Shown piece by piece: positions 631-3,637 of a stretch of 64,000 nucleotides of DNA; the first letter of the stretch is position 1; every line of letters begins with the position of its first letter. The notes beneath the pieces were generated by a model. That model was not told the DNA's origin. It was given only the letters and a program-made list of their open reading frames with translations, and ran no database searches. Origin of the DNA: Klenkia marina (GTDB lineage Bacteria > Actinomycetota > Actinomycetes > Mycobacteriales > Geodermatophilaceae); contig NZ_FMUH01000007.1 of NCBI RefSeq assembly GCF_900101025.1, forward strand, positions 1 through 64,000, given 5' to 3'. A program made the position numbers and the translations under genes.

Positions 631-1260
631 TCAGGCCACGCCGCGGGGTCGGAACTGCACGCTCACCCGCGGCCCGACGGGCTTGGCCGTCTTCGGGACG
701 CAGTGCTCCCACGTGCGCTGACAACTGCCGCCCATCACGACCAGATCGCCGTGCCCCAGCGAGAACCGCACCGACGCACCGCCGCCGACCGGCCGAAGCA
801 TCAAGGCTCGGGGCGAGCCGAAGGAGACGATCGCGACCAAGGTGTCCTGGCTGCGCCCCCGGCCGACGCGGTCGCCGTGCCAGGCGACGGAGTCGCGCCC
901 GTCGCGGTACAGGCACATGCCCGCCGAGACGAACGGCTCGCCCAGCTCGGGCAGGTAGTGGGCGTCGAGCGCCCGCCTGGCCTGGATCAGTGCGGGGTGC
1001 GGCAATGCTTCGCCGGCACCGAACCACCGGAGCAGGCGGGGCACGGCGACCTCGCGGTCGTACATCTGGCGCCGGTCGGCCCGCCACCCGATGTCACCGA
1101 GGAGCACCTCCAGCACCTCGTCGGACCTCTCGACCCAGCCGGGTAGGTGGTCCACCCAGGCGCCGTGGGCCAAGCGGTGCCGGACGACCCGCCCCGCGAG
1201 CGGCGTCGTCGCCGCCGTCGTGCCGATGTCCCACATCGAGGGCTGGTGCGCCACGGTCAT
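631..1260 (-). CDS. alkB: AlkB-family Fe(II)/2-oxoglutarate dioxygenase (DNA dealkylation repair)
   Basis: This 209-residue protein is the usual length for bacterial AlkB-like dioxygenases. The family oxidatively removes methyl or etheno groups from DNA bases using 2-oxoglutarate and O2. The iron-binding HxD is visible as WHGDRVG near residue 125. The C-terminal RVSVQFRP segment (about residues 198-205) matches the family's Arg-rich cofactor and substrate motif, and SFGSPRALMLRP is the conserved strand before the distal His. It lies 97 bases downstream of recQ on the same strand. The gap carries two LexA-like boxes, so damage induction is likely. The start is the ATG at 1260, just inside the boxes. 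Confidence 0.88.
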   Translation of the reverse strand: MTVAHQPSMWDIGTTAATTPLAGRVVRHRLAHGAWVDHLPGWVERSDEVLEVLLGDIGWRADRRQMYDREVAVPRLLRWFGAGEALPHPALIQARRALDAHYLPELGEPFVSAGMCLYRDGRDSVAWHGDRVGRGRSQDTLVAIVSFGSPRALMLRPVGGGASVRFSLGHGDLVVMGGSCQRTWEHCVPKTAKPVGPRVSVQFRPRGVA

Positions 1261-1281
1261 CCCCGCAGCCTAGACCGGGTT

Positions 1282-1297
1282 TCGAACAGGTGTGCGA
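1282..1297. promoter_or_regulatory. LexA-like SOS box 1 upstream of alkB
   Basis: The sequence TCGAACAGGTGTGCGA matches the actinobacterial SOS box TCGAAC-N4-GTTCGA with one mismatch (GTG for GTT). It sits 22 bases before the alkB start codon. Binding by LexA is inferred from the motif only. Confidence 0.6.
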
Positions 1298-1323
1298 AAG
1301 TCTGTGGACAACTTTCCTGGGTT

Positions 1324-1339
1324 TCGAACAGGTGTGCGG
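1324..1339. promoter_or_regulatory. LexA-like SOS box 2 upstream of alkB
   Basis: The sequence TCGAACAGGTGTGCGG is a second copy of the box, 42 bases (about four helical turns) from box 1. The shared block GGGTTTCGAACAGGTGTGCG is identical at both sites, so the second box looks like a duplication of the first. Confidence 0.55.
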
Positions 1340-1357
1340 AACCCTGTGGACGGTGGA

Positions 1358-3637
1358 TCAGGCGGACAGGGCCAGCACGAACGGCAGCACGCCCGGGGCC
1401 CCCGCGCGGCGCAGTTCTCGACCGGCCACCGTCATCGTCCAGCGCGAGTCGGCCAGGTCGTCGACGAGCAGCACCGGACCGTCGGCACCGGCGAGCCGTT
1501 CGCGCAGCTGCTCCCCCACGGTGATGCGCTGCCACACGCCGGCCAGGCGGAACGCCGAGTTGCCTCCCGGCCCCCCGGTCGGGCCGCCGTGCTGCAGCTC
1601 GAGCTCCCCGAGGTAGGGCAACCGGCCCATGCGCGACAGCGCCTCGGCCACCCCGCGGACCAGGGCCGGCCGGCGACGCGACGGCACCGACACCACGGCG
1701 ACCGGGCGGTCGGCCCAGTCCCAGGCCTTGAGCACCCGCGCGCAGGCCTGCACCAGCTCGTCCGACGGCGGTGCGTCGTGGCCCCGTTGCAGGGGCCCGC
1801 GGTGAGCCTGCGCGTCGTCGGGGGCAACGGGGTGCTCCTGCCGGCGAGCCACGTCGAACGCGGCATCGGGGTCCTCCTCGAGCGGCGGGGCCTCGAGCTC
1901 CTCGGCCAACGTGGCCACCCCACCCACTCCGTCGTCGCCCAGCAGGGTGCGCAGGCGCTGCCCCCAGCCCAGGTCGGTCAGCCGGGCCACGGCCCGGCCG
2001 GGCAGCACCTGCTCGTCGGGCGAGATCTTGCCCTTGACCTGCACCCCGAGGCGGTCGGCACCGGTGGGCCACTGCGCCCGCGGCGGCAGCTCGACCCCGG
2101 GCCGGTCCAGCCGGGCGGTGGCCGCCTCGGCGGCGTCGGCGGGCACGTCGGTGGCGTACCAGGGCCCGGCGCAGACGTCGCAGCGACCGCACGGCGCCGC
2201 TGTCGGGTCGTCGAGCGCCGTCTGCAGGAACGCCATGCGGCACTCGGCCTCCTCGACCGGCCGCGCGTAGGCGATCATCGAGCGCTGCTCGGCCTCGCGC
2301 GTGCGGGTGACCCGGGCGTAGCGGTCGGCGTCGTAGACCCACGGCACCCCGGTGGCGCGCCAACCGCCCTGCACCCGCTCGACCGCGCCGTCGACCGAGA
2401 GCACCTTCAGCAGGAGCTCGAGCCGGGAGCGGCGCACGTCGGCCACGGTCTCCAACCGGGCGACCGACCAGGCCTTGCCGTCGGACATGGCGCCGAGCAC
2501 GGCGGCCGCGTGGTCCTCCCGGGGCATGGACGAGGTGGCGAACCACTGCCAGATCGCGAGGTCCTCGGGGCCGGGGAGGAGCAGGACGTCGGCGTGCTCG
2601 ACGGCGCGGCCGGCGCGGCCGACCTGCTGGTAGTAGCTGACCGGCGAGGACGGCGCCCCCAGGTGGACGACGAACCCGAGGTCGGGCTTGTCGAACCCCA
2701 TGCCCAGCGCCGAGGTGGCCACCAGCGCCTTCACCCGGTTCTCGCGCAGGGCCTCCTCGGCCTCCTTGCGGTCGGCGTCGTCGAGGCGGCCGGTGTAGGC
2801 GCGGACGTCGTAGCCGGCGTCGCGGAGCAGTGCCGCGGTCTCCTCCGCCGCGGCGACGGTGAGCGCGTAGACGATGCCGCTGCCCGGCAGGTCACCCAGG
2901 TGGGCGGCCAACCACCCCAGCCGGGCGCGGTCGGTGGGCAACCGGAGCACGCCCAGCCGCAGCGAGTCGCGGGCCAGCGGGCCGCGCACCGTGGTGACCT
3001 CGACACCCCCGGTGCCCAGCTGCTCGGCGACGTCGGCCACCACCCGCTCGTTGGCCGTGGCGGTGGTGGCCAGCACCGGGGTGCCGGCCGGCAGGCGCCC
3101 CAGCAGCTCGCGGATGCGCCGGTAGTCGGGGCGGAAGTCGTGTCCCCAGTCGGAGACGCAGTGCGCCTCGTCGACCACCAGCAGGCCGCAGCGCTCGACG
3201 AGGTCGGGCAGCTGCTCGTCGCGGAACCTGGGGTTGGTGAGCCGCTCGGGCGACACCAGCAGGACGTCGACGTCGTCGGCGGCGAGGCGGGCGGCGACGT
3301 CGTCCCACTCGGTGGCGTTCGCGCTCGAGATCTCGACGGCCTTGATGCCCGCCCGGGCCGCCGCGGCCACCTGGTCGCGCATCAGCGCGAGCAGGGGGCT
3401 GACCAGCAGGGTGGGACCGCGGCCCCGTCGGCGCAGCAACGCGGTGGACACGAAGTAGACCGCCGACTTGCCCCACCCGGTGCGCTGCACCACCAGGGCC
3501 CGTTGCTGGCGCTCGACCAGCGCGGACACCGCTGCGTCCTGCCCCTCGCGGAAGACCGCATCGGGGCGGCCGGTGAGCTCCCGCAGCACCGCCAGGGCCT
3601 CGTCGGCGAGTGCGGTCTCCACCACGGCGCTGCTCAT
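1358..3637 (-). CDS. recQ: RecQ-family ATP-dependent DNA helicase with C-terminal phosphoribosyltransferase-like segment
   Basis: The start is the ATG at 3637; the frame stays open further upstream, but that stretch overlaps the PHP gene and looks non-coding. The 759-residue product has Walker A TGWGKS (about 53-58), DEAH (156-159) followed by CVSDWGHDFRPDYRRI, and the helicase C domain with GMGFDKPDLGFVVHLG and QQVGRAGR. It also has a Cys cluster (PCGRCDVC) of the RecQ zinc domain. The last part differs from classical RecQ: near residues 720-740 it has VLLVDDLADSRWT followed by MTVAG, a PRPP-binding-loop-like pattern of type I phosphoribosyltransferases. Helicase function in recombinational repair is well supported; what the PRTase-like end does is unknown. 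Confidence 0.9.
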   Translation of the reverse strand: MSSAVVETALADEALAVLRELTGRPDAVFREGQDAAVSALVERQQRALVVQRTGWGKSAVYFVSTALLRRRGRGPTLLVSPLLALMRDQVAAAARAGIKAVEISSANATEWDDVAARLAADDVDVLLVSPERLTNPRFRDEQLPDLVERCGLLVVDEAHCVSDWGHDFRPDYRRIRELLGRLPAGTPVLATTATANERVVADVAEQLGTGGVEVTTVRGPLARDSLRLGVLRLPTDRARLGWLAAHLGDLPGSGIVYALTVAAAEETAALLRDAGYDVRAYTGRLDDADRKEAEEALRENRVKALVATSALGMGFDKPDLGFVVHLGAPSSPVSYYQQVGRAGRAVEHADVLLLPGPEDLAIWQWFATSSMPREDHAAAVLGAMSDGKAWSVARLETVADVRRSRLELLLKVLSVDGAVERVQGGWRATGVPWVYDADRYARVTRTREAEQRSMIAYARPVEEAECRMAFLQTALDDPTAAPCGRCDVCAGPWYATDVPADAAEAATARLDRPGVELPPRAQWPTGADRLGVQVKGKISPDEQVLPGRAVARLTDLGWGQRLRTLLGDDGVGGVATLAEELEAPPLEEDPDAAFDVARRQEHPVAPDDAQAHRGPLQRGHDAPPSDELVQACARVLKAWDWADRPVAVVSVPSRRRPALVRGVAEALSRMGRLPYLGELELQHGGPTGGPGGNSAFRLAGVWQRITVGEQLRERLAGADGPVLLVDDLADSRWTMTVAGRELRRAGAPGVLPFVLALSA

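Follow-up and report, generated by a model that had tools for sequence, protein, structure and literature searches.

Doubled LexA-type boxes and adjoining DnaA-box-like elements upstream of alkB in Klenkia marina

The alkB locus and its repeated upstream block

The window analyzed here, a stretch of 64,000 nucleotides, forms the start of a 277-kb contig (C14) within the 4.22-Mb genome of Klenkia marina. Near its beginning lies alkB, whose product of 209 amino acids matches the AlkB-type dioxygenase family in Pfam (PF13532, 7.7e-14, above its cut-off). The nearest solved structures were human ALKBH3 (1.8e-15), followed by ALKBH2 (3e-7); E. coli AlkB was absent among the 22 structure matches, and a search of NCBIfam assigned no family. 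Removal of 1-methyladenine and 3-methylcytosine from DNA is the activity that defines an AlkB dioxygenase, and by its domain the product belongs to this type, its enzymatic activity being predicted. Upstream of alkB, on the same (minus) strand and separated from it by an intergenic gap of 97 bp (1261–1357), is a gene for a RecQ-like DEAD-box helicase, which scored 272 bits against the recQ equivalog model, below the cut-off of 640. By eye, the C-terminal part of this helicase looks phosphoribosyltransferase-like. The complement of positions 1–245 resembles the beginning of a 16S rRNA gene, and alkB in relatives is often found close to a contig end, as expected next to rRNA operons.

The features of the locus are as follows; LexA scores are matches to the 12 consensus positions of TCGAACN4GTTCGA, sought within 150 bp upstream of alkB.

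631–1260, minus strand: alkB, 209-aa 2-oxoglutarate/Fe(II) dioxygenase of the AlkB family
1267–1272, minus strand: -10 element TAGGCT, read in the sequence, 6 nt before the alkB ATG
1277–1296, plus strand: first copy of the exact 20-bp repeat GGGTTTCGAACAGGTGTGCG
1282–1297, minus strand: proximal LexA box TCGCACACCTGTTCGA (plus strand TCGAACAGGTGTGCGA), 11/12
1303–1311, minus strand: inner DnaA-like element TTGTCCACA, 5 bp from the proximal LexA box, an exact sequence match to a high-affinity DnaA box
1319–1338, plus strand: second copy of GGGTTTCGAACAGGTGTGCG, 42 bp from the first
1324–1339, minus strand: distal LexA box CCGCACACCTGTTCGA, 10/12, the same 16-mer in six of nine Klenkia genomes
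1345–1353, minus strand: distal DnaA-like element CCGTCCACA, 5 bp from the distal LexA box, not an exact match to that DnaA box
1358–3634, minus strand: RecQ-like DEAD-box helicase gene, 758 aa, ending 97 bp before the alkB start

The initial annotation had described two copies of TCGAACAGGTGTGCG, 42 bases apart inside an identical 20-base block upstream of alkB, and our sequence search confirmed them. This 15-mer occurs exactly at 1282–1296 and 1324–1338, and every other match in the window carries two or three mismatches; with up to three mismatches allowed there are 12 matches, compared with 3.2 ± 1.8 in shuffled sequence. Few 20-mers recur within 200 bp in the window, the only others being runs starting near 19.24, 19.42, 20.57 and 21.28 kb. 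Although the 20-mer is exact, it understates the repeated unit, as GTCCACAG closely precedes both boxes when read on the alkB strand (distal copy at 1344–1351). The 16-bp LexA-type boxes themselves lie 22–37 and 64–79 nt upstream of the alkB ATG; each scores at least 10/12, the distal box falling one match short of the proximal one.

LexA-type boxes within the genome and across relatives

The genome encodes a LexA with the DNA-binding (PF01726) and S24 peptidase (PF00717) domains. The pattern TCGAACN4GTNCGA was found 11 times forward and 11 times in reverse, compared with one match in each direction for the reversed pattern. The proximal alkB box is among these matches. Two more lie in the lexA promoter (C6:87233 and 87249, 16 bp apart; LexA domain at 87641), the second of which, TCGAACGTCTGTGCGA, has half-sites identical to those of the proximal alkB box, including GTGCGA. 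Another coincides with the start of a dinB-like polymerase gene or immediately precedes it, and recA has the palindrome CGAACACGTGTTCG upstream. A perfect LexA palindrome directly before a DUF5131 gene (L002, C5:58819) marks a candidate SOS gene from a family of unassigned function, and two proteins adjoining LexA-type boxes gave no match in Pfam.

We then compared the region upstream of alkB in two sets of relatives. The family set comprised 112 genomes, in 99 of which alkB was found. A second set of 80 named loci was reduced to 61 by setting aside the first 19 (Klenkia, Blastococcus, Modestobacter, Geodermatophilus and Goekera), which overlap with the family set. As controls we used 777 windows, mostly coding DNA, that lie farther upstream at the named loci. 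A box scoring at least 10/12 was present in all 99 family loci, compared with 6 of the 777 controls (0.8%) and 0.6% of Markov-resampled upstream regions. Among the other actinobacterial loci, 45/61 reached at least 10/12 and 56/61 at least 9/12 (controls at least 9/12: 73/777); the loci share ancestry, so that none of these conservation counts is made up of independent cases. In one draft genome (G037; L292, C282), about 2.6 kb separate the composite operator described below from alkB, with another LexA-type box directly upstream of the gene; this separation may be an assembly fault. A near-consensus palindrome, its conservation before orthologues and a LexA carrying both domains are what characterizes an actinobacterial SOS box, and on these grounds the alkB boxes are predicted to be of this type.

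The promoter layout is also conserved. In 97 of 98 family loci (L133 is not among them) and 49 of the 61 others, the box is followed 7–10 bp on by TANNNT and, mostly 6–7 nt later, by a start codon; the family exception, L055, has TAGCGT with neither ATG nor GTG at the aligned start. This arrangement suggests that the alkB mRNA is probably leaderless, with the LexA box lying over the -35/spacer region. TTGTCC was considered as a -35 element of alkB and set aside, the TTGTCCACA element ending 30 bp before the -10. A PafBC-type promoter at alkB was rejected on the same spacing, which does not place the element at -35.

Adjoining DnaA-like elements and the doubling in Klenkia

The element beside the proximal box, TTGTCCACA, has the exact sequence that a table of PMC4285127 gives as the high-affinity DnaA box of Streptomyces coelicolor and Mycobacterium tuberculosis. 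It occurs 16 times in the genome of K. marina, compared with seven occurrences of the reversed word. The composite TCCACA-N0-4-TTCGNACANNTGTNCGAA was found once in each of 72 of the 112 family genomes and its reversed pattern in none; 71 of these 72 composites lie within 400 bp upstream of alkB (71 of the 99 alkB-bearing genomes). The gap between TCCACA and TTCG is 4 nt in 70 of the 71 alkB composites, also when gaps of 0–40 nt were allowed. This pattern is not matched by the window's distal copy, and two Klenkia genomes (G077 and G082) had no match to it at all. On the same strand, TCCACA alone is present upstream of alkB in 72 of 99 family loci, only one of them among the 23 g4 loci, and in 21 of the 777 controls. 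The fuller word TTRTCCACA (either strand) was retrieved at 21 of the 99 loci, most relatives' copies not being exact TTGTCCACA. Among the 61 named loci it is found upstream of alkB in five, all from Actinoplanes or Paractinoplanes, compared with 2 of the 777 controls (mostly coding); coming from five related loci, this enrichment is at most a faint hint.

The same core accompanies the LexA box of recA. In the best-matching 30 of the 102 genomes with a match, none of them from g4, TCCACA stands 10–14 bp after the LexA-box core in 29 loci, each with a second copy 19 bp further on, and the thirtieth has the far copy only. By eye, the recA promoter (L216, C6:107368–107400; L261–L290) continues after the LexA box and the TCCACA pair (29/30) with a TGTCRGAC...TAG stretch, which resembles a PafBC-type RecA-independent promoter. 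TCCACA was detected in one of 31 lexA loci (our genome and the 30 best), searched on either strand within 500 bp upstream of the HTH, and among 14 LexA-type places examined in our own genome (16 rows, two places being counted twice) it lies within about 40 bp only at alkB and recA, with a further case 54 bp away at L005. Upstream of dnaA, by comparison, TCCACA is about 23 times denser near the gene: 102 copies in 17.5 kb (up to 700 bp upstream, 5.83 per kb) against 5 in 20 kb further out (0.25 per kb). These counts cover 25 loci, including one (L316) with hardly any genuine upstream DNA. CTG is the commonest triplet preceding TCCACA there, and TTG precedes it in 5 of the 102 sites.

The exact TTGTCCACA at 1303–1311 and the clustering of its core before dnaA qualify the inner element as a putative DnaA site, and alkB might then be controlled jointly by DnaA and LexA. 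We tentatively propose that alkB and recA of Geodermatophilaceae carry composite LexA–DnaA operators, in which DnaA would bind beside LexA (at a fixed gap in the case of alkB) and thereby tie alkylation repair and the supply of RecA to the replication cycle, and that in Klenkia the whole composite has been doubled at alkB. There is also a real possibility that some protein different from DnaA binds the (T)TGTCCACAG element, or that it forms part of the promoter. The near-invariant 4-nt gap, as if TCCACA and TTCG formed one composite motif, is consistent with such an origin, as are the small share of family loci with TTRTCCACA, the absence of the element from 22 of the 23 g4 loci, the scarcity of TTG before TCCACA at dnaA itself and the count of 16 for TTGTCCACA in the genome against seven for its reversed word. 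Against it stand the density of TCCACA before dnaA, with CTG as the most frequent triplet ahead of it there, and two g2 alkB loci that have TTATGCACA instead; the E. coli DnaA-box consensus is TTWTNCACA, and the change in these two loci falls at a degenerate position of it.

Within the family, the doubling itself is confined to one genus. Six of the 99 loci have two sites scoring at least 10/12 within 150 bp, and all six belong to the nine Klenkia genomes, with spacings of 42, 42, 67, 43, 42 and 42 bp; the 61 other loci contributed one further case, an overlapping pair in Nocardioides (L187). What the initial annotation had noticed before alkB holds across the family as a box, but as a pair only in those six genomes. 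In a tree built from 1.7 kb from recA onward, including eight of the nine Klenkia genomes (the single-copy G081 was left out) and four outgroups, both single-copy genomes included fall within the group of doubled ones (fork support 92/98). The history is most simply explained by a single gain followed by a single loss, and independent gains were discarded. In the three single-box Klenkia promoters (L038, L100 and L115), an inverted CTGTGGAC immediately precedes the start codon of alkB.

The second copy may, although this is less likely than not, be a neutral duplication, the proximal box alone being of consequence: the distal box is the weaker of the two, lies as far out as about -79 to -64 and is missing from three of the nine Klenkia genomes, two of which are the nested cases of probable loss. 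Conversely, distal CCGCACACCTGTTCGA is the same 16-mer in all six doubled genomes while the sequence between the copies varies, and five of the six doubled promoters keep a spacing of 42–43 bp. A fixed helical phasing of the two boxes was not upheld, one of the six spacings being 67 bp, which is not a whole number of turns; the phasing is suggestive only.

Proposed control of alkB and comparison with known systems

We consider it highly probable that the region is an SOS operator-promoter of alkB, repressed by LexA, released upon DNA damage and doubled in Klenkia. The placing of alkB in the SOS response by two LexA boxes, as the initial annotation had it, is the best-supported reading, given the half-sites shared with lexA, the box in all 99 family loci and the published actinobacterial precedent. 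Weighing on the other side are the imperfect scores of both boxes (11/12 and 10/12), the drifted and low-scoring sites described next, the 67-bp spacing in one doubled promoter and, as set out below, the poor match of the S. venezuelae alkB box and the behaviour of AlkB in M. tuberculosis. It is improbable that a different dimeric regulator owns the palindrome TTTCGNACANNTGTNCGAAA upstream of alkB, although the drift of the site in some lineages would fit one. Four genera (g2, g3, g10 and g12) have an alkB box of 10/12 that mostly reads TCGCAC-N4-GTGCGA and departs from the consensus in both halves, whereas each lexA box seen in g2 and g3 retains TCGAAC in at least one half. In g2 and g3 the alkB half-site is mostly GTGCGA on both sides, with flanking TTT/AAA as part of the conserved palindrome. 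Five of the 61 named loci, one of them Streptomyces, score only 8/12, all with a related word at the same place: TAGCAC-N4-GTGCTA in L158 and L173 (Micromonosporaceae), similar words in L171 and L189 and CCGTACACCTGTGCCA in L159. Drift of this kind, alike in both halves, points to a dimer that prefers a different sequence. On the other hand, the half-site GTGCGA is also found in the second lexA box here and in the lexA promoters of several relatives, g4 sites keep GTTCGA on one side, and LexA itself has been located at alkB in Streptomyces venezuelae, as listed in a table of PMC9380542.

Control mainly by Ada as in E. coli, with the boxes incidental, is very improbable: the genome does encode an Ada-AlkA fusion (Ada-HTH-AlkA_N, L293), but this is the sole match to the Ada zinc domain (C7:259385) and lies on another contig than alkB (C14), its 3.2-kb locus yielded no LexA-like site of at least 10/12, and LexA-type boxes precede alkB throughout the family. 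Membership of alkB in an Ada operon, either next to ada or under a shared promoter, was rejected since the two are on separate contigs.

Under SOS control, alkB would be transcribed, probably without a leader, from a promoter with TAGGCT as its -10 element, a start of transcription on or close to the ATG, and the LexA box at about -37 to -22. A LexA dimer on this box would block RNA polymerase and keep alkB off; upon DNA damage, RecA would promote self-cleavage of LexA and alkB would be released. In Klenkia, a second copy of the block of DnaA-like element and LexA box appears to have arisen by duplication, 42 bp or roughly four turns of the helix further upstream, so that a second LexA dimer could fit on the same face and would probably tighten repression. 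DnaA, if bound beside the boxes, would probably contribute further repression or a timing effect, in the way reported for uvrB and recN of E. coli.

Geodermatophilaceae are known for stress-tolerant bacteria of soil and stone. Judging by the presence of the box at every family locus examined, and frequently beyond, regulation of AlkB through the SOS response, which contrasts with its regulation by Ada in E. coli, is likely to be an old feature; in this genome the Ada-AlkA branch lies on a separate contig. Should the adjoining elements prove to be DnaA sites, the replication initiator would be directly linked to two core SOS genes.

In principle, SOS control of alkB in Actinobacteria is already known from the literature. 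In S. venezuelae, alkB (vnz_32390) is listed among the LexA ChIP-seq targets, its RNA changed 11-fold upon treatment with mitomycin C, and the LexA motif is given as tCGAAC-N4-GNNCGa (PMC9380542). As in Klenkia, the same motif and an SOS box near the gene start are found there; the alkB box, printed as GGTTACGCTGGATC at -20, is itself a poor match to the consensus, and the table gives a single box, whereas the Klenkia window has two boxes with DnaA-like elements. In M. tuberculosis, alkB is described as induced by mitomycin C in a RecA-dependent manner, and AlkB (Rv1000c), detected only after mitomycin C, belongs to the SOS-box set; it was also overproduced in a strain that lacked RecA and in which PafBC had been knocked down, so that control there is not simply by RecA and LexA (PMC8151990). 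In a moxifloxacin study, a table gives Rv1000c a value of 8.09-fold under 'SOS response' (PMC7911356). Compared through the literature, M. tuberculosis thus has an AlkB of the SOS-box set, as predicted for Klenkia, and differs in this overproduction. PMC5057432, with about 20 up-regulated genes with putative SOS boxes, names alkB in another context only. Control of alkB by LexA as a departure from the Ada rule, a point raised in the initial annotation, is supported but, given the S. venezuelae and M. tuberculosis precedents, unsurprising for the phylum.

In the titles and abstract openings of the open-licence literature we found no report of a DnaA–LexA operator at alkB or recA in Actinobacteria, and our searches of that literature gave no paper on a doubled alkB operator or on the DnaA-like composite. 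Several boxes per promoter are also found in tandem LexA operators such as that of lexA in this genome, where they lie 16 bp apart; at alkB the distance is 42 bp and the DnaA-like element is repeated too. The nearest parallel for the composite is in E. coli, where uvrB and recN are controlled by DnaA together with LexA according to PMC6015884, a link reviewed, along with a RecA-independent one in Bacillus subtilis, in PMC8203912. Both systems join LexA boxes and DnaA boxes, putative ones in Klenkia, at SOS genes. In E. coli, DnaA-box6 overlaps LexA-box4 and the two proteins compete (PMC6015884), whereas the putative elements of Klenkia lie adjacent to the LexA boxes, at a fixed gap at alkB and as TCCACA near the box of recA.
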